Shown: positions 24,737 to 53,657 of the stretch, one piece after another
Layout: every line of letters starts with the position of its first letter
Position numbering within the stretch: position 1 is the stretch's first letter
DNA from: Microvirga sp. ACRRW
GTDB taxonomy: Bacteria; Pseudomonadota; Alphaproteobacteria; Rhizobiales; Beijerinckiaceae
Reading direction: 5' to 3'
Length of the DNA stretch: 64,000 nt
Assembly (NCBI RefSeq): GCF_022346925.1
Contig: NZ_JAKRNJ010000003.1
Coordinates: forward strand, 496,001 to 560,000
The notes under the pieces: model-generated
Told to the model about the DNA's origin: nothing
The model's database searches: none
Seen by the model: only the letters and a program-made list of their open reading frames with translations
Made by a program: the position numbers and the translations under genes

Positions 24737-26203
24737 TTGGATTCCGATCCGCACGCACCTGGTTTGAAACTTGGACGTCTCCGGCTCCTCCTGGCGCTGG
24801 ACGCTTTGCTCGTGGAAGGCAGCGTCAACCGCGCCGCCGAGCGACTGGGAATGAGCGCGCCTGCGATGAGCAGGCTGCTCGGGCAGGTGCGTGAGATCTA
24901 CGACGATCCGCTCTTCGTACGCTCATCCCGACGTCTGATCCCGACACCGTTCGCGGAAGCCATGCGCCAGAGATTGCGCGCTCTGGCCGCGGAGGCCGAG
25001 GCGTTGTGCCAACCGCAGGAAAAGACTCCGAATGATGCTCTCACCGATTTTGAGGCCTGGACGGCCGCGCCCGTCATCGAAGCGGCGCCTTTGACGTCGC
25101 GACGCAGTGTGCTGATCGAAGGGGAGCCCTCTCCAGAAGCTATCGCACGCAAGCTCGTATCTCTGGGAAAGGTCGAGGATACGCGCAAAAGGCTTGCCAG
25201 GCACATTGCGACGATGGGAGCGGGGATCGGCCACAGTCGTCCTCTCACACTCAATGAGGCGGAGGATGCATTCTCCATCGTGCTCGATGGCGAAGCAGAT
25301 CCCATCCAGATCGGTGCGCTTCTCTCCATCATGAATTTCAGGGGAGAGACGGCTGCGGAACTCGCCGGCTTCGTTCGCGCGGCACGTGTCCATATAGGCG
25401 CTGCAAATCCGGAAACATCGCGCATCGATCTGGATTGGCCGGCCTATATCTCTCCGAAATCCCGCAGAATGCCCTGGTTTCTGCAGGCGGCTTTGCTCCT
25501 GTCTCAGGCAGGCCACAAAATCCTTCTCCACGGCATGGACGGCGGCAGCGGTACGAAAGGCAAGCTTGTTACGGCAGCAAGCGCCATCGGCATTTCGGTT
25601 TGCTCAAACACGGCAACAGCCGCAGACGCCATCGCCGAGCATGGGATCGCCTATCTTCCCCTGGCCGCGATGTCGTCCCAGCTCCATCGCCTGCATATGC
25701 TTTATGGGTTGCTCGAGACGCGCTCGCCCGTCAATTCGTTGATGCCGCTTCTCAACCCTCTCGGTGCGCCGTCGATCATGATGGGCGTCGTGCGTCCGGC
25801 CTATCGCGAGCTGCATTGCGATACGGGGGCGCTTCTCGGCAGCCGCAATCTTACCGTTCTGGGCGCAAGTCGTGATTCTGCCGAGGCAACGCCTTTCCGC
25901 TCAAGTACGCTTCTTCGTCTCGTCGCCGGAAAAGTGGATCATCTGTTCATCCCCGCTGTTCCGGAACCGCCGGCCTATCCAGCGACGGGCATGGCAAGCC
26001 TCGAATATTGGCGCGCCGTCTGGACAGGAGCCATACATGACGAGCGCGCCGCCGCCATAATCACAGCCACCGCAGCGGCAGCGCTTCTCACCTTGAGTGG
26101 CGGCGATGCGGATCGTTTCGTAGAGTGCCAAAGAGCGGCAAGGAAGCTTTGGGAGGGACGCAATGGTAATGCTCTGCCGCGAAGACGTCGTTCATACGGA
26201 TGA
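24737..26203 (+). CDS. LysR-type HTH fused to a TrpD2/YbiB-like domain
   Basis: This 488-residue protein joins two families. Residues about 10-75 are a LysR-style HTH (LLALDALLVEGSVNRAAERL, SAPAMSRLLGQVREIYDDPLFVRS). Residues about 140-480 resemble glycosyltransferase family 3 in its TrpD2/YbiB version: a helical domain (LTLNEAEDAFSIVLDGEADP), then LLHGMDGGSGTKGK and TLLRLVAGKVDHLF. The strict PRPP-binding motif of TrpD is altered, as in TrpD2 proteins, which bind nucleic acid instead. No LysR effector domain is present. The start is probably the TTG at 24737. An EamA transporter gene follows 9 bp later, so both are one operon. The function is unknown; DNA-binding control is likely. Confidence 0.8.
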   Translation: MDSDPHAPGLKLGRLRLLLALDALLVEGSVNRAAERLGMSAPAMSRLLGQVREIYDDPLFVRSSRRLIPTPFAEAMRQRLRALAAEAEALCQPQEKTPNDALTDFEAWTAAPVIEAAPLTSRRSVLIEGEPSPEAIARKLVSLGKVEDTRKRLARHIATMGAGIGHSRPLTLNEAEDAFSIVLDGEADPIQIGALLSIMNFRGETAAELAGFVRAARVHIGAANPETSRIDLDWPAYISPKSRRMPWFLQAALLLSQAGHKILLHGMDGGSGTKGKLVTAASAIGISVCSNTATAADAIAEHGIAYLPLAAMSSQLHRLHMLYGLLETRSPVNSLMPLLNPLGAPSIMMGVVRPAYRELHCDTGALLGSRNLTVLGASRDSAEATPFRSSTLLRLVAGKVDHLFIPAVPEPPAYPATGMASLEYWRAVWTGAIHDERAAAIITATAAAALLTLSGGDADRFVECQRAARKLWEGRNGNALPRRRRSYG

Positions 26204-31975: not shown

Positions 31976-34039
31976 CTAGTAGCCGGTCAGCTCGTCGGCC
32001 TTCGGGGGATGCGGCACCGGTTTTCCTAAAATCCTCGACATGATTGTCTTGAGAGTTTCAGCATCGTTGTCGAATCCGCCATGAGAGCAAGACGCTGTCT
32101 TACCGCCGCTGCCAGTCGAGTAAGCGATTTCAAGTTTCGAGTGTGAAGGCATCTCCCGCGCATAAGCCTGCATTCCGACAATCGGCGTGTTCGGCATCTG
32201 CTCATAGGCGCGAGAAACGAGATAGAGCAGGGAGCGGCCGTAGGACGGCAGCAGGGGGACATTGGCGGAGACGGTATCGTCCTGTTCCAGTTGATCGGTC
32301 AGGTTATACAGGTAGATCCGGTCCTGCAGCTTCATTGCCCCTTTGCCGGTTAAATACGGCTCGTAATGATCCTTGAAGAAAGCGACCGTGCAGGCAGGCG
32401 CCATCAGGTGGATTGATCCCAACTCGATCTTGCTCAGGTTGAACCGTCCCAGAGAGGAGAGCAGGTAGCCGAGCATGTTTGCGCCGGCACTATGCCCGAC
32501 AAGATGAAGCTTGGGGCGCCGGCGGGCCTTGTCGAGACCCGAGAGCAGCGGCGACAATCCCTTGAACCCGCCATCATACTCCGATCCCCGGTTGAAGGAC
32601 ATCAGAGCATCCTGCTTCATGTTTCTCCAGGCATATGAGCCTGTCTGCTTTCCGATGCCGGCCTCGAAGAACCAGTCGGACAGCGCGCCTCCGATGCGGC
32701 CGACGGCCGGCGACCGGGACAGCTGCCCGAACACCTCGTCGATGAAGCCTGCGTCCCACATCAGATGGAAATTGTAGAGGCGGTTCCGGCCATAGATGTT
32801 GTTCCGCTTCCATGTCGCAATGCGCTGAGCCTCGGCCCCGAGCGGGTTCAGGCCGCCATGGGCATAGATGATGAGGTGTTCGTAGCCGAGATCGTCGTTC
32901 GCGTCGGCCTTGGTCAGACGCTCGACGGTCTCCTGCATCTCCGTCTCCGTCGGTGAGCCGTACTTGCCCGATGTGACGAGAAGCCCGTCATCGATATTGA
33001 TGAAGTGGCCGATGATGTCGCCTCGTGTCGGATCGTTGTAGCCGAAAAGACCCGTTGTGCTCGTGGGCGTTGCCCCTGGGGCGGCTCCGAATGCGGCCGG
33101 CGCGCGGACACCGATCTGCAGCACCCATGCATCCATGATCGTGTTCGCCCAGTCCGCATAGGTCCACTTCGCAATGCCGTTCACGCCCCAGTCCGGTCCC
33201 CAGGAGTTCAGGACCCAGAAGCCTGTGTCGTCATATCCCACGATGGCAAAGGCGTGGCCGCCGACGGGATCGCCGCCGGGCTCGATGAGATCGTCCTTGG
33301 GTTTCTCCCAGTGCGAATGGATCTGCGCCGATGCGTAGATCACGCCGATCTCATTGAGCGCCGCGTGATAGTCGCTGATATCCGGCTGGAGCCGGAAATA
33401 GGCACCGAGCCGCGTTTCTCGCGCTTCCTTCGCCATAATGTAGGTGAGCGCCCAGTCCTGGATGCCAGGTTCGTCCGGCGCGGTGGCATCGGTGCAGACT
33501 CCGTTCTGGTAAAAGCCCTTGATCGCTCCGCGCAGGCTCGACCCTTCATAGGCTGTGCCATCCCACTCATCATTGCGCTTGGCCATCTCGTAGAGCATGC
33601 GCGAACTCACAGGCTCTGGCCGGTCGGAGCCGATCTCCCGGCACCGCAGAAAGTCGATCACGTGCGCCAGGGCAAAGCCTGTGCAGCTGGAATCCTTGCC
33701 TTGATCCCGCACAGGAAAGGCAATCCGCGGATAGATGCCAGGATGGAGGGATCTCAAGTGGGGAAGATAGAGACGATCCCGGATGTCGGGCATGTCGGGG
33801 AGGATATCGAGCACGCGCGGGCCGAGTTTCTTGCTCACTCCGGCGAACTCGCGGTTGCCGACGCGGATCCCCGTCGGGACCGATGTCGATGTGCTTGCAT
33901 CGGCAGGAAGGCTGTCGGGTATCGCCGCGGAAGCGGATTGAGGGGCGTTGCTAATCGTGTTCGGCCGGGAGGAGGCATCCGACCGGCTGGTCTTGCGCTG
34001 TCCCTTGCCGGGGTTCGATTGGGCTCGTGCTCGTGCCAT
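31976..34039 (-). CDS. Papain-like (C1) protease fused to an alpha/beta hydrolase
   Basis: This 687-residue two-domain protein has no signal peptide. Residues 1-60 are a Ser/Pro/Thr-rich linker-like leader. Residues about 75-310 form a C1A peptidase: oxyanion Gln about 113 and catalytic Cys about 119 (DQGKDSSCTGFALAHVIDFL), His about 262 (VGGHAFAIVGYDD) and Asn about 278 (WVLNSWGPDWGVNG). Residues about 385-660 look like a serine hydrolase, with HLIIYAHGGLN, then the nucleophile elbow LVGHSAGANML (Ser about 517) and a late SCSHGGFDN that could hold the His. Both active sites appear intact. I know no characterised protein with this order. It stands alone. Confidence 0.8.
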   Translation of the reverse strand: MARARAQSNPGKGQRKTSRSDASSRPNTISNAPQSASAAIPDSLPADASTSTSVPTGIRVGNREFAGVSKKLGPRVLDILPDMPDIRDRLYLPHLRSLHPGIYPRIAFPVRDQGKDSSCTGFALAHVIDFLRCREIGSDRPEPVSSRMLYEMAKRNDEWDGTAYEGSSLRGAIKGFYQNGVCTDATAPDEPGIQDWALTYIMAKEARETRLGAYFRLQPDISDYHAALNEIGVIYASAQIHSHWEKPKDDLIEPGGDPVGGHAFAIVGYDDTGFWVLNSWGPDWGVNGIAKWTYADWANTIMDAWVLQIGVRAPAAFGAAPGATPTSTTGLFGYNDPTRGDIIGHFINIDDGLLVTSGKYGSPTETEMQETVERLTKADANDDLGYEHLIIYAHGGLNPLGAEAQRIATWKRNNIYGRNRLYNFHLMWDAGFIDEVFGQLSRSPAVGRIGGALSDWFFEAGIGKQTGSYAWRNMKQDALMSFNRGSEYDGGFKGLSPLLSGLDKARRRPKLHLVGHSAGANMLGYLLSSLGRFNLSKIELGSIHLMAPACTVAFFKDHYEPYLTGKGAMKLQDRIYLYNLTDQLEQDDTVSANVPLLPSYGRSLLYLVSRAYEQMPNTPIVGMQAYAREMPSHSKLEIAYSTGSGGKTASCSHGGFDNDAETLKTIMSRILGKPVPHPPKADELTGY

Positions 34040-34217
34040 CACGTCACCGCGGAAGCCAACCCCCGCAGCATCATCTCACGCGCAAGCGTAACCGTCGACT
34101 CGGGAAACTCGTTTTCCCGGTGCTGGGTTAAAATGGGCTCTCGCCCCTCGCAAAGGCTTGTGGCTTACAATGCTTATTTGGGGAAGAGTTGGTGGAGCGG
34201 GAGCAGCTAAAGACCTG

Positions 34218-42386: not shown

Positions 42387-44042
<1,656 letters not shown>

Positions 44043-44381
44043 GTCGATCCCTCTCCATGGACATGACGGGTTCAAGCTAGGAACCCCGAACCCGATTGCT
44101 TAAGCTTCACTAACTGGAAGCTGTCGGCGCGACGTCAACTACCTGCCATGCAACGGCAATGCGGCATCGGATTCCACTGCATCGTTGGCTGGCGACGGGA
44201 CCGGGTTGGTGTCATTCGCTTCACCATGTCAGGCCGCCTCGGACCGGGAGTTCGCCTGCATGAGGAGCATGGACCGCCACTGACATCGTCCCAATTCAGG
44301 GAAATCCCGTAGGTAGCCGGTAGAATCGGGCCAATCATGATCGTCGCTGAAGGGACTCCTGTTTGCGCGTATTTGCGGATC
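44043..44381. other. Promoter region of ccoN and end of nosX
   Basis: A 339-bp gap between ccoN and nosX, both transcribed leftward. It holds an inverted repeat, AGCTTC-N8-GAAGCT (44103-44122), about 60-80 bp before the ccoN start. No TTGAT-N4-ATCAA site, terminator or gene is visible. The ccoN promoter must lie here. Confidence 0.5.
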
Positions 44382-45380
44382 TCATGACGGAAGGGCGATG
44401 GCCTCCCCCGTCTCCGTCGTCAGGCGGGCCTGCCCCTCTCCGAGTTGCCGGAGTGTCCGGGCGATTGCCGTGATCGGCATGAGGCTGAAGGCCGTCGAGA
44501 GGGCGTCCGCCGTCATCGCACTCGGCATGACGGTGGTCACGCTGCGATACAGGTGGGCCGAGGCACCCGTGCGCGGATCGAGCAGGTGATTGAAGTGTCC
44601 GGCCACGTCGAAATGGAATCCATAGGTCCCGGAGGTGGCGACGGCTTGATCGACCACGTTCAATGTCTCGCCAACGCGGTCCGGATTATCCGGATCGGCG
44701 ATGCCGACGCGCCACGGATCGCCGGAAGGATGCGAACCCACGGCTCGCGGCTCACCCATGTCGACGAGGCTGCTCGCGATCCCGCCTTCGTGCAGGATAC
44801 TGACGATCCGGTCGGTGACGTATCCTTGAGCGATGCCGTTCAGCGTCAGGCCCATGCCACGTCGGGATAGGGCGATCCGATTGGCGTCGAACGTCACCTT
44901 GTCGAAGCCTACACGCTCCAACGCTTCGCGCAGCGCGGATTCGGGCGGGCCATCTGAATTCGCATCGGGTCTGGAGAAATGATCTCGGTAGAGGGTCCAC
45001 AGCGCCTGCACCGTCGGATCGAAGGCGCCTCCGGTCAGCTCCCAGCAGCGGCGACACTCGGTCAGCACAGTGACCAGATCCGCAGGCGGGGCGATGAGGA
45101 TGCCTTGGCGGTTCAGCGCCGCCAGAGCGGTGTCAGCCCGATAGAGACTGAACACCGCCTCAAGGCGCCGGACCTCGGCAAGCGAGCGCTCGACCAGGCG
45201 TTCGGCGACGGCACGGTCGTGATGGTGGACTTGCAGGCTCGCTACCGCCCCCATCGCCTGGCCGCGCCACGTCACGAGATGGGCCTCAGTCCTTGGCGCG
45301 CGTCCGAACGGCACGACGCCGAGGCCGACCGCTGCCGCAGTGACTCCTATGAAACGTCGGCGGGAGAGACGAGGGAACAT
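44382..45380 (-). CDS. nosX: NosX, ApbE-type FAD:protein FMN transferase
   Basis: This 332-residue ApbE-family enzyme has a twin-arginine signal (LSRRRFIGVTAAAVGLG, about 5-21). Conserved pieces are GQAMGAVASLQVH, the FAD/Mg site YRADTALAALNRQG, GGAFDPTV, LTLNGIAQGYVTDRIV and the late SVTTVMPSAMTADALSTAF. NosX attaches FMN to the periplasmic domain of NosR. The start ATG follows AGGAAAGAAACC. It is the last gene of the nos operon, 10 bp after nosL. Confidence 0.93.
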   Translation of the reverse strand: MFPRLSRRRFIGVTAAAVGLGVVPFGRAPRTEAHLVTWRGQAMGAVASLQVHHHDRAVAERLVERSLAEVRRLEAVFSLYRADTALAALNRQGILIAPPADLVTVLTECRRCWELTGGAFDPTVQALWTLYRDHFSRPDANSDGPPESALREALERVGFDKVTFDANRIALSRRGMGLTLNGIAQGYVTDRIVSILHEGGIASSLVDMGEPRAVGSHPSGDPWRVGIADPDNPDRVGETLNVVDQAVATSGTYGFHFDVAGHFNHLLDPRTGASAHLYRSVTTVMPSAMTADALSTAFSLMPITAIARTLRQLGEGQARLTTETGEAIALPS

Positions 45381-45390
45381 GGTTTCTTTC

Positions 45391-45987
45391 CTAATGAGCG
45401 TGACCGTCCTTCGTGACCGGGGCGGCATGGCCCTGATGCTGATCCGCTAAGTTGGGCGCCTGTCCGGCGGAACCCGTCACTTCTGCGGTGCCGCCCAGGA
45501 CATAGTCTTCCGGCACGTCTGCGAAGGCCACAACGCGTCCGCCGTTCTCGGCAGCGAACTTTTCCGCAGCAGACTTGTCGGAGAACGGGACCGCCTCGTC
45601 GCCGCCCATGCCGCCCTGCATCCGGCTGCCGATCACGAACGAGGCCCGTTTCGCATCGACCCAGTTGTTGACGCCGGGCTTGTCCCAGTTCGGAGCCTTC
45701 GCCATGTCGGAGACGTAGATCGCACGGATGTCTCTCGGCTCCTCCGGCAACAGCGTGAACGAGATCGCGTCCCGCGCCGACGAGAACCAGACCGGCTCCT
45801 TGCGGCTTGCCAGAATGATCTGCCCCTTCGGACCGGTATGCTCGAGCACGTTCATGCCGCAGTAATGGCCGATGGCCGAGTCCGTCATCTCCTGTGGCGG
45901 CGGCGGAGCCTCGGCGGTTTTCTCGGCGTTGCAGCCCGCCAGCGCGAGAGCGCCCGCGAAGGCCGCGAAGAGGATGGTCTTTCTCAT
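45391..45987 (-). CDS. nosL: NosL, copper-binding lipoprotein
   Basis: This 198-residue lipoprotein has the lipobox LAGC (Cys about 19) after a signal peptide. It continues with the NosL pattern HYCGMNVLEHTGPKGQIILA, WFSSARDAISF and AYVGSRM-like RASFVIGSRMQGGMGGDEA. The CGM motif with nearby Met and His residues binds Cu(I) for NosZ. The His-rich end (HQGHAAPVTKDGHAH) could hold extra copper. The gene overlaps nosY by 4 bp. Confidence 0.93.
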   Translation of the reverse strand: MRKTILFAAFAGALALAGCNAEKTAEAPPPPQEMTDSAIGHYCGMNVLEHTGPKGQIILASRKEPVWFSSARDAISFTLLPEEPRDIRAIYVSDMAKAPNWDKPGVNNWVDAKRASFVIGSRMQGGMGGDEAVPFSDKSAAEKFAAENGGRVVAFADVPEDYVLGGTAEVTGSAGQAPNLADQHQGHAAPVTKDGHAH

Positions 45988-46814
45988 AGTTCTCTCCTGG
46001 AGAAGGCAAGCGCCGCGAGGCCGAGCGGCAGGAGGGCCCAGGCGGCCAGCGCCGCGAGCAGGACGGACGGACCCAAAGTCGTGGTCTGCGCGACTCCGGC
46101 CATGCCGGAGAATGCGCTGACATTGTCGGAGCCGGTCAGGTTGAACAGGCGGTAGGCATCGGTCGGGTTGAGCAACAGCAGGGCATTCAGCAATCCTCCC
46201 GAGAGGACCTGTCCCTGATCGACCACGAGCAGCCCGAGCAGGGCCATGTCGTAGATCAGCACGAATACGAGCCAGATGCCGATGGCGATGCCGGCGGCGG
46301 TTCCGCGCTCGCGCACGAGCGCGCTGACGAGATAGCCCACTGCAATGAACGCAGCCCCGAGCAGGATTGAAGAACCGATCATCGATGAGAATGCCATCCA
46401 GCTCTCTCCATCGATGATTTCACCGGTTGCGATCAGCGCTCCCGCCGCAGCCCCGTAACCCAGCAGCGTCGCGAAGGCCAGGATCGACAGGTGGCCCACG
46501 AACTTGCCGAGCAGCACCTGCCAGCGCGCCACCGGGTAGCTCAGGAGCAGCAGCATGGTGCCGCGTTCCATCTCGCCGACAATGGCGTCGTGCGAAATCA
46601 GCAGCGCAATCAACGGCAGCAGGAAGATCGTGAGGCTGGACAGACTGACGATCACCACGTCGAGCGCGCGTGCGCCTACATTGCCGGTCGGAGCACTGCC
46701 GAGAAAGGTGAGCGAGAGGGCAAGCGCTGCCAGCAAGAGCGTTGTGGCGAGAACCCAGCGGTTGCGCAGACCCTCCTGGATCTCCTTGCGCGCGACGATC
46801 AGGATGTTTCTCAT
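45984..46814 (-). CDS. nosY: NosY, ABC permease for CuZ maturation
   Basis: This 276-residue ABC-2 type permease has six hydrophobic helices. It starts with ILIVARKEIQEGLRNRWVLA and contains FLLPLIALLISHDAIVGEME and GTMLLLLSYPVARWQVLLGK. NosY with NosF and NosD forms the transporter needed to build the Cu4S centre of NosZ. It overlaps nosF and nosL by 4 bp each. Confidence 0.94.
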   Translation of the reverse strand: MRNILIVARKEIQEGLRNRWVLATTLLLAALALSLTFLGSAPTGNVGARALDVVIVSLSSLTIFLLPLIALLISHDAIVGEMERGTMLLLLSYPVARWQVLLGKFVGHLSILAFATLLGYGAAAGALIATGEIIDGESWMAFSSMIGSSILLGAAFIAVGYLVSALVRERGTAAGIAIGIWLVFVLIYDMALLGLLVVDQGQVLSGGLLNALLLLNPTDAYRLFNLTGSDNVSAFSGMAGVAQTTTLGPSVLLAALAAWALLPLGLAALAFSRREL

Positions 46815-47731
46815 CGCGCGGTCTCCTGCGACAGAAGGAAGTGGGCGTAGAGCTCATCGAGCGTTGGCGGCATGACGTCGAGATCCTCGACTGGCGCACC
46901 TTCGTCGGTGGCGCGCCGCAGCACCTCGATCTTGCGCTCGGGTGCGGCATCGATTTCGACCATATGGCCGTTGACCTGACGCCACCCGTCGACCGGACCA
47001 AGCCAGTTCGGCACGTTGGCCAGCCCTGCATCGGTCACCTTGAGTCGGATACGGGTCGGCAGGCGCGCGATGCGGCGCAGCTCGTCGAGCGTTCCGTCCG
47101 CGACCTTGATGCCGTGGTTCATGATGATGACCCGTCCAGCACGTTCCTCCAGCTCAGTCAGGGCGTGCGAGGACAGCAGCAGCGTCGCGCCGCGCCCGCG
47201 CAGCTCCTCGACGATCTCGTAGAAGCTCAGTCGCAGGGCAGGGTCGAGGCCGGTGGTAGGCTCGTCGAGCAAAAGGACCCTCGGCTCGCCCAGCAACGCC
47301 TGCGCGAGCCCGAGACGCTGGCGCATGCCTTTGGAGTAGGTTCCGACCCGTCTGTCCGCAGCAGGGGTGAGGCCGACGCGATCGAGAAGCGTTGCAACAG
47401 ACTTCGCCGGCTCGCGCTTGAGACGGGCGTAGAATGCCAGGGTCTCGTAGCCCGTGAGTGACGCGTTGAAGGAGACGTTCTCCGGCAGATAGCCGAGCCG
47501 CCGGCGGGCGGCGAATTCGCCCGCAGCCGGATCTTCGCCCAGCACCTTGATGTGGCCGCTGGTCGGGCGGATCAGACCCAGCATCAGCTTCATCAGAGTC
47601 GTCTTGCCGGCGCCGTTGTGGCCCACAAGCGCTACCGTCTCGCCTTCGGGCAGCATGAACGAGACGTCACGCACCGCCTCGACCTTGCCGAAGCGCTTGA
47701 CGATGTTCCTGATCTCAACGGTTCCGGTCAT
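46811..47731 (-). CDS. nosF: NosF, ABC ATPase for CuZ maturation
   Basis: This 306-residue ATPase has Walker A GHNGAGKTT (about 38-46), signature YSKGMRQRLGLAQALLG, Walker B VLLLDEPTTGLD and switch His SSHAL. The length and gene order fit NosF. It energises the NosDFY complex and overlaps nosD and nosY by 4 bp each, showing strong coupling. Confidence 0.95.
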   Translation of the reverse strand: MTGTVEIRNIVKRFGKVEAVRDVSFMLPEGETVALVGHNGAGKTTLMKLMLGLIRPTSGHIKVLGEDPAAGEFAARRRLGYLPENVSFNASLTGYETLAFYARLKREPAKSVATLLDRVGLTPAADRRVGTYSKGMRQRLGLAQALLGEPRVLLLDEPTTGLDPALRLSFYEIVEELRGRGATLLLSSHALTELEERAGRVIIMNHGIKVADGTLDELRRIARLPTRIRLKVTDAGLANVPNWLGPVDGWRQVNGHMVEIDAAPERKIEVLRRATDEGAPVEDLDVMPPTLDELYAHFLLSQETAR

Positions 47732-49134
47732 GGTCTTGCTCCTTCGGCGGGCTTAGGGCGTGCGGGCGGGGCCATGAGGGGATGCATGAGAGGATGACTG
47801 TCGACCACGCCGCCCGGCAGCAGTGCCGGGAACTGCGCCTGCGCCCATCGGATCACCTGCACGGCCGGGCTGTTCATCAGCACCTTGGCCTGCGGCGCGG
47901 TCCAGAGAACGCGGTCGACGAGATCGTTCGGACGGTAGGCGCCGTCCCCCAGGCCGTCGCCGTCGAGATCGAAGGCCGGGTTGTCGCTCCAGTAGTTGCC
48001 GCGCCCGTCCTTGGACCAGTCGAGATAGCGAGTGCCGACGTATTTCACTTGGTTCTGGTTCCTGATGAAGGCGTTGCCCGCGATCTCGTTGCCTTCGGAG
48101 CCGGCAGTGAAGTGGATGCCGATCTCGCAGCCTTCGAACCAGTTTTCGCGGAAGCGGTTTTTGTTTGTGTTGTAGATGAACACGCATTTTTCCGGGCCAA
48201 TGCGGTCGCCCGTCGCGAATGTCTGCTTGGGCTCGGCTTCTTCGGGTAGGCCGTGCTCGCTCGTCTCGTTGCCTCCAAGGCCCGATCTGGTCCAGCGCTC
48301 GGCGGCCTGGATGCGCCCCACGACGGCATTGCCGGAAATCTGCGAGCCGTTGGCGAAGTTGAACAGGAAGCCGCGGTCGCGGTCGCCGTCCGACACGTTG
48401 CCGCGGATCGTCAGCCGGTGCGAGTACATGATCGCGTAGCCGACGGTGTTGTTGGTCGACACGTTGTCCGTGACCTCGCCGTCGTTGGTGTACATGTAGT
48501 GGACGGCGAAGCGCAGGTCCTGGAAGCGGTTGCCGGAGAACACGTTCTTGCGGCTGGCAATCGAGAAGATCCCGTCGCGCCCATACCGGAAACTGTTGTC
48601 GAGGACCTTGGCGCCCGGTGCATCCCAGACAGAGACGCCGTTGCCGGCCTCGTTCATGCGGCCTGTTCTGATTCCGATGATCTCGTTCCGGCGCACGACC
48701 GCATCGGGTGAGCCGTGGATATAGATTCCGTAGAGATTACCCTCGACCCGGTTGTTCTCGACGATGGCACCCGCAGCGCTCTTTTCGATGAAGATGCCGG
48801 AATCCATCTTCTCCAGGTCGCGGCCCGAGCCGCGCACGGTCAACCCGCGCACGATGGCTCCAGGTGCCGAAATGGTCACGACACTCCCCTTGCCCGATCC
48901 GATCAGGACCGCGCCGGGCTCGCCTTCCACGATCAGCTTGCGGGTGATCCGGATGGGACCGTGATGTTCGCCGGTCTTGAACACCACAGTGTCTCCGTCC
49001 ACCGCCAGGTCGATGATGTCCTGAGAGATGTCTCCAAGACCGATCGAGACACGCTCCGCCCTGGAAGGTGTGACGAGGCCGGCGGCGAGTGCCGCCGCCA
49101 GCCCGAGACGCACGATGGTGCAAGCGCCCGCCAT
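47728..49134 (-). CDS. nosD: NosD, periplasmic beta-helix protein
   Basis: This 468-residue secreted protein has a signal peptide (IVRLGLAAALAAGLVTPSRA) and CASH/right-handed beta-helix repeats: VENNRVEGNLYGIYIHGS, VRRNEIIG, VLDNSFRYGRDGIFS, FSGNRFQDLRFAVHYMYTND. NosD works with NosF and NosY to assemble CuZ. It starts 4 bp after the nosZ stop and overlaps nosF by 4 bp. Confidence 0.95.
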   Translation of the reverse strand: MAGACTIVRLGLAAALAAGLVTPSRAERVSIGLGDISQDIIDLAVDGDTVVFKTGEHHGPIRITRKLIVEGEPGAVLIGSGKGSVVTISAPGAIVRGLTVRGSGRDLEKMDSGIFIEKSAAGAIVENNRVEGNLYGIYIHGSPDAVVRRNEIIGIRTGRMNEAGNGVSVWDAPGAKVLDNSFRYGRDGIFSIASRKNVFSGNRFQDLRFAVHYMYTNDGEVTDNVSTNNTVGYAIMYSHRLTIRGNVSDGDRDRGFLFNFANGSQISGNAVVGRIQAAERWTRSGLGGNETSEHGLPEEAEPKQTFATGDRIGPEKCVFIYNTNKNRFRENWFEGCEIGIHFTAGSEGNEIAGNAFIRNQNQVKYVGTRYLDWSKDGRGNYWSDNPAFDLDGDGLGDGAYRPNDLVDRVLWTAPQAKVLMNSPAVQVIRWAQAQFPALLPGGVVDSHPLMHPLMAPPARPKPAEGARP

Positions 49135-49138
49135 GGCG

Positions 49139-51088
49139 TCAGACCGCCTGCGGCTCGACGAGCATGCGGCCCTGCATCTCCATGTGCATGGCGTGGCAGA
49201 ACCAGGTGCAGTAGTACCAGTACACGCCCGGCTTCGAAGCCGTGAAGGTGACGGATGCCGTTGCCTGCGGTGCCACCTCCATGTTGACGCCGTAATTGAC
49301 GATGCAGAACCCGTGCGTCAGGTCTTCCACATCGTCGATGTTGGTGACGTAAACCGTGACCTCGTCGTTCTGCTTGACCTGGAAACTCTCCAAGCCGAAC
49401 GCGGGCGCAGCCGAGGTCATGTAGACCCGCACCTTGCTGCCGTCGCGGATCACCTTGGAATCCGTCATCAGATCGACGCCGTCGGTCTTGGCCTGCTGCA
49501 CTGCGTCGGCGAAGAACGGGTCATCGCGCTTCCACACATGCAGCGGGTTGATCTTCGAGCGATGCACGATGGTGGCGTCGTGCGGCTCGGCAAAGCTCGG
49601 GCCGTCATGCACGATCACCATCTGGTCGCCGGAGATGTCGATGAGCTGATCGTTTTCGGGCTTGAGCGGGCCGACGTTGAGGAATCGGTCCTTCGAGAAC
49701 TTGTTCAGCGAGATCAGCCATTTGCCGTCCGCATCCTTGGTCTGGCCCATGGAGGTGTGATTGTGGCCCGGCTGGTAGTGGACGTCGAGTTTCTGTAGGA
49801 CCGGGTTGACCTTCTCGCCCTTGAACGCCCGTATCGCGAGGTCGATGTTCCACTTGCACACCTGGCTGTCGAGGAACAGCGTCGTGTAGGCGTTGCCCTT
49901 GCCGTCGTAGGCGGTGTGTAGCGGGCCGAGGCCGATTTCCGGCTCGGCGACGACCGTATCCCGCGGCTGGATCTTGTCGTCGAACAGGTCGTCGAACTTG
50001 CGCACGTCGAAGACCGTGACGGTCGGCGAGAGCTTGCCGTTGGCGACGACATGGATGCCGTCCGGCGCGGTGTTGATGCCGTGCGGGCTGTTGCCGACCG
50101 GGACGTAGCGGGTGTAGGGCGAGCCCTTCTTGCCGTCGAGGACGGGGACACCGTTGATCATCTCGGCCTTACCGGCCTTCACCGCCTCCTCAATGCGTTT
50201 GAGGTTGAAGATGACGACCCAGTCCTGCTCCTTGGCCATCATCTCGGCCAGCGTGACGCCTTCCTCGGAGTTGTAGCAGGTCGAGAAGCAATACTTGCCC
50301 TGGTAGTCGGCATCGACGTTGTCGAGGTTGCCATCGACCTTGATCTGCCAGGCGACCTTCATGGTCTCGCCATCGACAGCGGTGAACATCGACGTGTATT
50401 GCTTCGGGTCGTCAAGAATCTTGCCGTCGTTCGGGATCGGCACCCGGTCCTCGCCATTGCAGAACACGTAGCCGGTCTTTGGATACTTCTGGACGCGCAA
50501 GCCGTGCACGGTGGATTGGTTCGGCAACTGGATGATCTTGTCGCACTTCATCACGTCGAGGCGGATGCGGCAGACGCGGGTGTTGGACTTGTCGTTGGCG
50601 AACAGGTATCGCCCGTCATAGGTGCCGTCGGTGAACGACGGATGCGGATGGTGGAGATCGCCGTTCATGTAGATGCCGCCGCGATCCTTCAGGAACTCGC
50701 GGTTCTGCGGCGTGAGACCTTCGGTCAGGATCTTGAGACTCTCGTTCGTCTGGCCCCAGCCGGTGGCGCTGTCGCGGTTGAACACCGGGATACGCATCAA
50801 CTCGCGCATCGACGGCAGGCCGATGATGCGGACCTCGCCGGTCTGGCCGCTGGAGAAGAACACGTAGTATTCGTCAAGCTCGCCCGGCTTGACCTCGTAC
50901 TTGTTCGCGATGGCGGGGCGTGCCGCAGGCGCGGCCGGACGCGTCTGCGCCTCGGCGGATGTGATCACGCCCGTATCCTTCAAGGAAACGCCGCCCGCGA
51001 CACCGGCGGCTCCTGCCGCAGCTGCGGCTGCGGTCGTCGCGATTACCTGACGGCGGCTGAGACCGTTCGTTTTCTCTTCCCGTGACAC
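49139..51088 (-). CDS. nosZ: Nitrous-oxide reductase NosZ (Tat-exported type)
   Basis: This 649-residue enzyme reduces nitrous oxide to dinitrogen in the periplasm. The N-terminus has a twin-arginine signal ([20 protein letters not shown]), which marks the typical (clade I) form. The propeller domain includes [20 protein letters not shown] with CuZ histidines, and [14 protein letters not shown]. The C-terminal cupredoxin carries the CuA ligands [16 protein letters not shown]. The GTG at 51088 follows AAGGAGG. It starts 17 bp after nosR. Electrons may come from the pseudoazurin encoded at 56055-56510. Confidence 0.97.
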
Positions 51089-51105
51089 GTGTGCCTCCTT
51101 CTCGC

Positions 51106-53619
51106 TTATGAAGCGGTGGTGGGGACGTCGGCCTTACCCGGCGCGTCCGTGGGTGTTCCGATCATCTTGCCCTTATGGGTGATGATCGGTTTAGCAGGGC
51201 CCTGGCCGCCGTCTTTGCTCTGGCGCATGGACGGGGACGAAAGTGCCTCGCGCTTCTCGCGCTTGAGCCGCACCTGGATCATGTGCGGGCAGCGCTGATC
51301 GTCGTGGTATAGCTCCTGGCAATGCATGCAGTAGATGCACTCGTTGACGTTGATCTGTCCCTCGGGATGGATCGACTGCACCGGGCATTCCTTGGCGCAG
51401 CGCTGGCACGGCGAGCCGCATTCGGGCCAGCGCCTGAGCCACTCGAAAGTGCGGATCTTGCCTGGGATCGCGAGCGCAGCACCGAGGGGGCAGAGATAGC
51501 GGCAGAAGAAACGCTCGATGAATAGCCCGACCGACAGCAGCGCGAGCGCGTAGATGACGAACGGCCAGTCGCGGACGAACTTCAGGATGATGGATGTCTT
51601 GAACGGCTCGACCTCGGCGAAGGTCTCGGCCAGCGCGACGTCGTAAAGCGAGAGTCCGAACAGGCCGAGAAAGATCACGTACTTGATCGGCCACAGACGC
51701 TCATGCAGGCCCCAGGGCACCGTGATCTGCGGCACCTTGAGCCACCGGGCGACAGTATTGGTGAGCTCCTGGAGTGCACCGAACGGACAGAGCCACCCGC
51801 AGAAGGGACCACGGCCCCAGAACAGCAGCCCTGCAGCGACCGCGGCCCACAGAATGAAAATCAGCGGCGCCGCGAGGAAGAACTCCCAATTGAAGTCGGT
51901 GATGAGCGAGTTGGTGAAAGTAAGGACGTTGACGACAGAGAGTTGGGCGTTGGCATACCAGCCGAGCCAGACCAACGTGAAGGTGAGGTAAGCGCCCCGG
52001 ACCCAGATGTAAACCGCGGGGCGACGCACCAAAGCGTCCTGGAAGAAGAAGATCGCAGTGAGGACGAACAGAGCAAACGCTGTGATGCCGATGGAGACGG
52101 TGTTGGTCTTCCAGATCTTGAGCCAGAGCGGCTCCTCGATCTCCCCCGCCGCGAGTGCGTTCGCGTCGCTGAGAGACGATGCTGCAGGAGCCGGTGCCGA
52201 TATCGACGGAGCAGGCTGGACTTGCGCCTGGGCGGGATCCTGCGGGGCCGTTGCACGGGCAGGGGGCTGCTCGACCCGCAGATACTGGTCCGGCAGGATG
52301 TATTCGAGATCGAATGTCAGGAAGGCCTTGTCGCGTGCGCCGACATTGCGCTGCACAAGCAGCTGCAATTGCCACGGCTCGGTGAGGTCGAGCCTGAAAT
52401 CCTCCGGCACGACGAACAGGGCGATCTCGCGCAAGGCCGGCGCACCGGCCGCGGCGAGGTCGCCGAGGCGGGTGTGGTTGCGGTCGCGGAAGCGCGTGCC
52501 CTGCCCCTCCTGAAGGAGTTCGATGCGGTCGAAGATGCCGCCGCGGACATAGCCGGAGCCTTTGAACGAGTAGGCGCCTTCGCCTGCCACGACAACGGCC
52601 TGCTGGTCCGGCTTGAGCCGCGCCTTGAGCTGCTCGTAGGCCACATCCCCAAGCAGGCTGCGCCCGATGGCAGGAACGCTCACGGGGGCGACGTAGAGAT
52701 CGATGAAGGTGTCGTTTGGATCGGCGGTCTCGGGGTTGTTCGCCGCTTCCCGATTGCCCGCCTGCGCGAAGCGGTCATTGACCTCGCCGACGGTGAGGGA
52801 CAGGCGCCGGACCGAGCCGTCACCGAGCAGGCTCTGCCAGTCGCGGATCTCGCTCTTCGACAGATCGACGCTCTTTACGGCGGCTGGCGCCGTGGCGGTG
52901 GCAGGAGTGCCTTGTGCGGCGCCGAGGCGGCCGCTGCGGATCAGGCGCACGGCCGAGCGCACGACGCTGTCGCCCATGACAAGCACCGTCACGGTTGCGC
53001 CGCTGACGATGTCGACCTGAGGCGGCCGCTCGGCTCCGGTTGCGACCGGCTTCATGTCTTTGCCGACGAGCGTATTCACCGCGTCGACGATGCGCCGCTC
53101 CGGGATGCCGACGAGAACGATTGGCTCCTTATGATCGACGAGCTTGATCGCCGTGATGACGCCGTTCGGATCGATGCCGACCAGGAGGTTGATCGGTTTG
53201 CCTGAATAGCCGGTGGCGTTCGTGACATCAGTGTTCAGATAGACGTAACCGAGCAGGCGGTCGCCCTGATGGATAGGGACGAGCGGCGGATCACCCTGAG
53301 GTGCTCCGAAGCGGTCGGCCCCAGGAAAAAAGTCTGCGGGCTGCGCCTTCGTGAGGAATTCCTGCACGCGGCCTGCCGCCATGCCGGGCCCCGTCCAGAG
53401 AAGGAGGATCACGAACCCAAGCAGAGCCGCAATCCAAAGACGCTTGAAATCGGTATTCGCGAGATGTCGGTCGGGGTTAAGCGAGTGCGCTTTTGCCAAC
53501 AGGGGACCGTCCAGGATAGCGTTCGTGCTTCTGAACAGAAAAACTTCAGCGGCCTTGAATCGGATCGGTTCCGATGGAAAGCTGCGATCTTTCCGGGGCC
53601 GTTGAAATCGATCTCGCAT
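51106..53619 (-). CDS. nosR: NosR, membrane flavo-iron-sulfur protein
   Basis: This protein of about 837 residues supports nos transcription and passes electrons to NosZ. Parts in order are: N-terminal helix ([18 protein letters not shown]), periplasmic FMN domain with the attachment threonine region [20 protein letters not shown], helices from about 520, [14 protein letters not shown] and [13 protein letters not shown], then two 4Fe-4S clusters ([17 protein letters not shown]). The start is uncertain. The only ATG codons are at 53628 and 53619, but an FNR-type box at 53658-53671 puts the transcript start near 53623. A non-ATG start further in is possible. Confidence 0.93.
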
Positions 53620-53657
53620 GGCCCACAACCATCATGCTTCGTATGGTCAGGTGAACA

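Follow-up and report, generated by a model that had tools for sequence, protein, structure and literature searches.

The predicted VMAP conflict systems described by Kaur et al. 2020 (PMC7159879) never have a caspase without an α/β-hydrolase gene next to it. The same paper describes 'System 3', which is found mostly in alphaproteobacteria and has a core made up of a NucA-type nuclease (Endonuclease NS) and a trypsin; its lysozyme and papain-like effectors are attached through EAD1, and the papain-like domain is called a peptidoglycan peptidase. In experiments on phage defence, pro-nucleases of one kind were activated by a trypsin-like protease (Hachiman, AVAST) or by a caspase (canu; PMC12799240). 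α/β hydrolases are listed among the effectors for membrane lipids (PMC8195603), and multidomain C1 peptidases of prokaryotes are acknowledged to be a gap in knowledge (PMC10380794). Each of these papers is cited here for its passages on such proteins.

Here we describe a fusion of a papain-like C1 peptidase to a predicted α/β hydrolase (C1–ABH), encoded in a 64,000-nucleotide stretch of a Microvirga genome (the window). Like the VMAP pairs, whose hydrolases are known here by their description in PMC7159879, it combines a cysteine peptidase with an α/β hydrolase; unlike them, it has a papain-like C1 peptidase, fused to the hydrolase, and no MoxR-vWA-VMAP genes were recognised in the window. System 3 is approached by one relative (locus L151), where a trypsin-Endonuclease_NS gene identified by Pfam (L151:3198-5378) lies 27 bp upstream of the C1–ABH gene on the same strand, whereas no NucA-trypsin core lies near the window gene and the Pfam scan gave no EAD domain. 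As in Canu, Hachiman and AVAST, one kind of effector can have a protease of one or the other of two unrelated types as its partner, but in those laboratory-tested systems the effector is a metallo-β-lactamase-fold nuclease and the proteases are trypsin-like and caspase (PMC12799240). By analogy, the fusion would work like the caspase–hydrolase pairs of predicted conflict systems. We file it in no named system, because the 20 other window proteins scanned included no caspase, core-gene product or sensor. An earlier note on this DNA, made from the sequence alone, had called the order of domains uncharacterised; we found no description of a C1–α/β hydrolase fusion in the literature searched, and the passages found in PMC10318531 and PMC10907252 do not mention one.

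The fusion gene and its surroundings

The fusion is a single ORF on the minus strand (34039..31976), which encodes 687 residues from the ATG at 34039 and ends with the stop codon at 31978-31976. An alternative in-frame GTG at 34042, one codon upstream, would give 688 residues (ORF 31976-34042). The plus strand at 31976-34039 is interrupted by stops, and the coding strand is the minus strand. By eye, a frame of 11 codons (34039..34074, minus strand) ends in a TGA that overlaps the ATG of the fusion gene (TGATG), so that translational coupling with the putative start is possible. A chance ORF can be ruled out, because the catalytic motifs are kept across many genera.

The protein begins with a basic, Ser/Ala/Pro-rich tail of 78 residues (33806..34039), delimited by sequence and hydropathy, which is reduced or absent in distant relatives in the alignment. 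This is followed by the papain-like C1 domain (33107..33805; Pfam, PDB match and alignment), an Ala/Pro/Gly/Thr-rich linker of ~33 residues (33008..33106; sequence) and the α/β-hydrolase half (32024..33007; motifs and profile matches of relatives), all on the minus strand. There is no hydrophobic N-terminus or transmembrane segment, as the maximum hydropathy over 19 residues was 1.16 in the whole protein and 0.31 in the first 80 residues, in keeping with the earlier claim that a signal peptide is lacking. The claim of a fusion within one 687-residue protein also held, at the same coordinates, and both halves form one ORF in 67 rows of relatives. NCBIfam gave no match to the protein, and 0 families of the PADLOC 2023 anti-phage profiles matched it.

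Pfam domains near the gene were those of a sulfatase, a HAD hydrolase, a glyoxalase, a response regulator and a P-type ATPase; a small PG_binding_1 protein is encoded 4.5 kb away on the opposite strand, and nitrous-oxide-reductase and oxidase genes lie farther off. A scan of 20 other window proteins revealed no recognisable sensor, NTPase or caspase, and MoxR-vWA-VMAP and NucA-trypsin core genes were absent from the same set. The two caspase matches in this genome lie on contigs other than that of the window. The earlier note had stated that no neighbours explain the protein; this stands for the 20 window proteins scanned, but in some relatives a role is suggested by the genes nearby. Two side observations concern the window itself. 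At 42390-53628, on the strand of the fusion gene, COX1, ApbE, NosD, nos propeller and FMN-binding/4Fe-4S domains occur, by which this region is probably an ordinary denitrification cluster, and at 24737-26200 a single ORF contains both a LysR-type HTH and a glycosyl transferase family 3 domain.

The C1 peptidase half

The C1 catalytic set is complete in the window protein, with Gln113, Cys119, His262 and Asn278 (687-residue numbering) placed by alignment at minus-strand codons 33703-33701, 33685-33683, 33256-33254 and 33208-33206, respectively. Together with the GHSAG serine at residue 517, these are the residues that had been picked out from the sequence before. Peptidase_C1 (PF00112) matched above the Pfam gathering score (23.8 versus 20.7 bits, E 5e-5). 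The nearest solved chain was 3ois_A, named 'Cysteine protease', which matched residues 79-309 with an E value of 2e-14 and which we take to be xylellain. The C1 domain is homologous to this peptidase over that span, although the 3ois chain, of 291 residues, has no hydrolase partner, unlike the fusion. A whole-genome search with PF00112 reported zero C1 peptidases; it also missed the window protein itself, and therefore says little about other C1 peptidases in this genome.

All four C1 residues were kept in 66/66 aligned C1-bearing sequences, a set that includes the window copy and excludes L010, L155 and the fragment L154. The set is also intact in two proteins outside this count, L045 and L046, in which Pfam places a trypsin domain fused to the C1 domain. 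The C1 set is thus kept in every copy examined, and the hydrolase, to judge from the aligned residues, can be lost.

The predicted hydrolase half and its dead copies

The GHSAG nucleophile elbow of the window protein (codons 32497-32483, minus strand) contains Ser517. On the same strand, alignment places an HGG motif at 32860-32852, the Ser codon at 32491-32489, the Asp predicted to be the acid, a role that we infer, at 32278-32276, and the hydrolase His at 32083-32081. The order of G-x-S-x-G elbow, acid and His is the canonical one for α/β hydrolases and is conserved, with Ser kept in 62/66, Asp in 61/66 and His in 63/66 aligned sequences.

The domain search called for earlier gave a divided answer: Pfam C1 scored above its cut-off, but the hydrolase half of the window protein had no Pfam match at E <= 1, though DUF900 (PF05990), an α/β hydrolase family, was matched by 14/67 relatives at E <= 0.01 (best E 8e-4). 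At the same threshold Hydrolase_4, LIDHydrolase, Abhydrolase_6, Abhydrolase_3 and Ser_hydrolase were each matched by 1-3 of the 67 relatives. A profile of 45 hydrolase halves retrieved 16 chains from the PDB, none of them significant (best E 0.06); 14 of the 16 are named esterase, lipase or hydrolase, and in the three alignments printed the match falls at the nucleophile elbow. An hhalign profile comparison with a PGAP1-like hydrolase encoded by a neighbour gene was weak (probability 9%). From the order of the motifs and the weak profile matches, the second half is predicted to be an α/β hydrolase.

The hydrolase Ser is absent from 4/66 sequences (L044, L142, L152 and L047). These four also lack the Asp and both the His and the second Gly of the HGG motif, and the C-terminal His is missing in just part of them. 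The Ser is missing as well in the trypsin fusions L045 and L046, whose hydrolase halves are too diverged for the family profile. Since these dead-hydrolase copies keep the C1 set, the idea that both domains always act on one substrate, which follows from a suggestion in the earlier note, is weakened for the family as a whole. The four copies cluster together in both trees. We also considered one origin for all dead hydrolases and found it unsupported: in one tree L045 and L046 fall elsewhere, on very long branches, and a common single loss is therefore not established. As a separate observation, three of the four members of the sub-family with a dead hydrolase and an intact C1 set adjoin a GDSL lipase-caspase gene.

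Caspase or C1 peptidase as the partner of the hydrolase

Relatives of the hydrolase without a C1 domain have a different protease partner. Among the fetched loci, a caspase was fused or within 300 bp in 12/14 C1-less rows (4 in the same ORF and 8 adjacent, with 7 of the 14 loci found using a single caspase-linked hydrolase as query), compared to 3/67 C1-fused rows under the same definition (Fisher p = 5e-10, uncorrected for kinship). The comparison covers 81 rows and excludes the window copy; four duplicates or fragments (L015, L002, L154 and L041) and the unrecognised L045 and L046 were dropped before counting. In L170 the hydrolase spans two frames, of which the caspase-bearing one was used for the count. 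In 8 rows of the 81, 6 of them C1-bearing, the flank was shorter than 1500 bases on one side. The two C1-less exceptions are L146, with a radical-SAM enzyme downstream, and L169, a partial hydrolase. All three C1-bearing rows with a caspase are dead-hydrolase copies beside a GDSL lipase-caspase gene: L044, with same-strand neighbours CHAP and GDSL-caspase (the GDSL score below the Pfam cut-off), L142, with GDSL-caspase-M15, and L152, with GDSL-caspase, all by Pfam and on the same strand.

Because a caspase accompanies 12/14 C1-less rows and only 3/67 C1-fused rows, the hydrolase family mostly travels with a cysteine peptidase, either caspase or papain. This suggests that the papain-type C1 domain fills the place of a caspase beside the hydrolase. 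In a quick tree the C1-less copies can form one side of one branch, which carries no support value, so the exchange of caspase and C1 may have been a single event, and the Fisher p of 5e-10 therefore overstates independence.

Whether the halves occur as separate genes in relatives had been set beforehand as a test of the fusion. With the family profile, no separate C1-only ORF was found beside the hydrolase in the loci fetched with flanks, leaving L045 and L046 aside, and both halves share one ORF in all 67 C1-bearing rows. Strong clustering of caspases around active C1–ABH genes was looked for and not seen. In a position test over 43 genomes, caspases near C1-bearing genes were in weak excess (2 seen versus 0.22 expected, P ~0.02), and both copies concerned have a dead hydrolase, as do the other C1-bearing copies with an adjacent caspase.

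Proposed role

The caspases, trypsins and peptidoglycan hydrolases that keep company with relatives of the fusion point to a conflict or cell-death effector. We consider the chances about even that the protein is a cytosolic two-enzyme effector of this type, in which a papain-type peptidase replaces the caspase and gates a hydrolase that cleaves lipids or other esters. A signal of stress or invasion would make the C1 peptidase active, and it would then cut the linker, the hydrolase or another protein; the Ala/Pro/Gly/Thr-rich linker would be a natural place for such cleavage and is our candidate site. The released or activated hydrolase would attack membrane lipid or another ester and so damage the envelope of its own cell, and lysis would be completed, in some relatives, by a peptidoglycan hydrolase that is fused to the protein or encoded next to it. 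As the window gene stands alone, the sensor would be either the protein itself or encoded elsewhere. We hold more tentatively a specific form of this proposal, namely programmed cell death by a papain-gated lipase, with papain standing in for caspase and with the dead hydrolase of one lineage replaced by the neighbouring GDSL lipase-caspase.

The association ties a C1 family to the caspase–α/β-hydrolase pairs of predicted immunity, which gives this family of multidomain C1 peptidases a testable role. Caspase and papain around one effector would also amount to a natural swap experiment and, if the proposal is true, the papain family joins the proteases of bacterial cell death.

Fused domains and neighbours in relatives

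Some relatives carry domains that act on peptidoglycan. By Pfam, a muramidase is fused in L139 and GH19 in L135 (below cut-off in L138), and in L132 a lysozyme-like stretch, below cut-off, shares one protein with C1 and ABH; no Pfam lysozyme match was found in L130, a relative of L132. The C1-less L143 and L144 combine Amidase_2, ABH and caspase in one protein. Genes of this kind also occur as same-strand neighbours, such as PG_binding-M15 beside L013 (Pfam) and an annotated amidase beside L042.

These fusions and neighbouring peptidoglycan-hydrolase genes raise the alternative that the C1 half is a peptidase of peptidoglycan stem peptides, and the whole protein a lysin-type enzyme that degrades the envelope, not a signalling protease. 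The C1 half also matches, weakly, a Gordonia phage protein annotated 'putative lysin' (E 8e-7), and the passages on System 3 in PMC7159879 assign its papain-like domain to peptidoglycan. We nevertheless regard this alternative as unlikely, as the closest relative with a solved structure carries the name 'Cysteine protease' and the window protein has no secretion signal. The partner of the hydrolase, moreover, alternates with caspase, which is a protein-cleaving peptidase.

Other same-strand neighbours identified by Pfam were GDSL in L127 (below cut-off in L125), An_peroxidase and trypsin in L124, An_peroxidase in L047, and FGE in L133 and L160. The scans of relatives' neighbourhoods took in 46 proteins, many of them selected by clustering or annotation, from surroundings in which the first, greedy longest-ORF gene calls gave 1013 ORFs within 9 kb of family genes in 71 loci; later neighbour genes were called with a codon-usage caller. 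About one third of the 46 had no family, and others belonged to ordinary ones (BTAD, MS channel, methyltransferase, sulphotransferase, radical SAM, DUF1800 and pyridine-nucleotide oxidoreductase). The largest 'recurrent neighbour' clusters were set aside as generic by sequence (an ABC-transporter ATPase and a histidine kinase), and one cluster was mixed by Pfam, with GDSL, caspase and peroxidase genes.

Animal-type haem peroxidase genes lie near the C1–ABH genes of L124, L047 and L042, the last of which also has an annotated cytochrome P450. Our guess is that these loci perform oxylipin-like chemistry. In the 43-genome set, An_peroxidase was near a C1-bearing gene in one genome (G351). The trypsin-C1 proteins of L045 and L046 lie beside a divergent giant gene of >2200 residues that is cut by the end of the locus (L045:1-6849, L046:3-6665) and had zero Pfam matches above cut-off.

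Distribution

The closest named relative is that of Microvirga guangxiensis, at 90% identity. In our genome collection 16 loci matched, of which 13 (L001-L013) align to 598 or more query positions; L014 and L016, gammaproteobacterial by name, are ~40% identical, and L015, at the end of a contig, is fragmentary. Matches were found in 11/101 genomes drawn as relatives. Counted from the match tables, both halves are present in 11/385 genomes of the window's class, 12/398 drawn from the phylum and 15/369 of the class of genome G532, presumably Gammaproteobacteria; these three samples have a few genomes in common. Adding matches to one half only brings the totals to 16 (of 385), 25 (of 398) and 31 (of 369). 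The fusion is thus spread over Pseudomonadota, but sporadically.

Within Microvirga, similarity at the DNA level to four other loci (L001, L147, L148 and L155) extends over the gene and fewer than 100 flanking bases; outside the gene, translated matches reach at most 69 residues, at 28% identity. A conserved operon in Microvirga is ruled out, as similarity ends at the gene edges in 4/4 of these loci. The earlier note had proposed to look for the same fusion in other genomes and for its conserved neighbours; the fusion was found there, and conserved neighbours were absent from these four loci. Because DNA similarity stops within 100 bases of the gene, the fusion gene seems to move alone, which, like the sporadic spread and the copies on plasmids, counts in favour of the proposed effector.

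Matches were also present in 25 plasmid records, and in 10 of these they span 80% or more of the query. Rhizobium, Sinorhizobium or Mesorhizobium account for 12/25 of these records, which, with the lack of a signal peptide and the peptidoglycan-hydrolase fusions, would suit an effector that a secretion system delivers into a plant host or into other bacteria. We think this quite improbable: neither the annotated neighbourhoods nor the scanned neighbours had a conspicuous secretion-system gene, and copies are also present in Marinicella and Thiolapillus, which are free-living marine bacteria. Still less credible is a metabolic or processing enzyme (peptide maturation with ester or thioester hydrolysis) that has no conflict role and whose relatives' neighbours are coincidental, since the isolation of the window gene among unrelated genes and the many relatives with no telling neighbour are outweighed by the patchy distribution (both halves in few genomes of the window's class), by synteny limited to the gene itself, and by the partners that recur in some members of the family, namely caspase, trypsin and peptidoglycan hydrolase.

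A phage origin of the whole protein was also considered and set aside. The four matching records of the phage collection all cover the C1 half alone, and a single contig with a C1–ABH gene was found in the viral collection (L171, from IMG/VR; an 802-residue frame, in one scan).

Several rhizobial regions bring these genes together. An R. gallicum plasmid region (L174:19665-39793) contains an ABH-caspase pair and two different C1–ABH fusions within ~20 kb. In R. leguminosarum, caspase, YLATT (three-TM) and trypsin genes adjoin the C1–ABH gene on the opposite strand (L037:4192-9323). On pSymA of S. meliloti strain ml28 (L172:4890-11492), lysozyme, ABH, caspase and pYEATS genes are consecutive on one strand, in what looks like an uncharacterised conflict system; an IS21 element lies downstream of this row.
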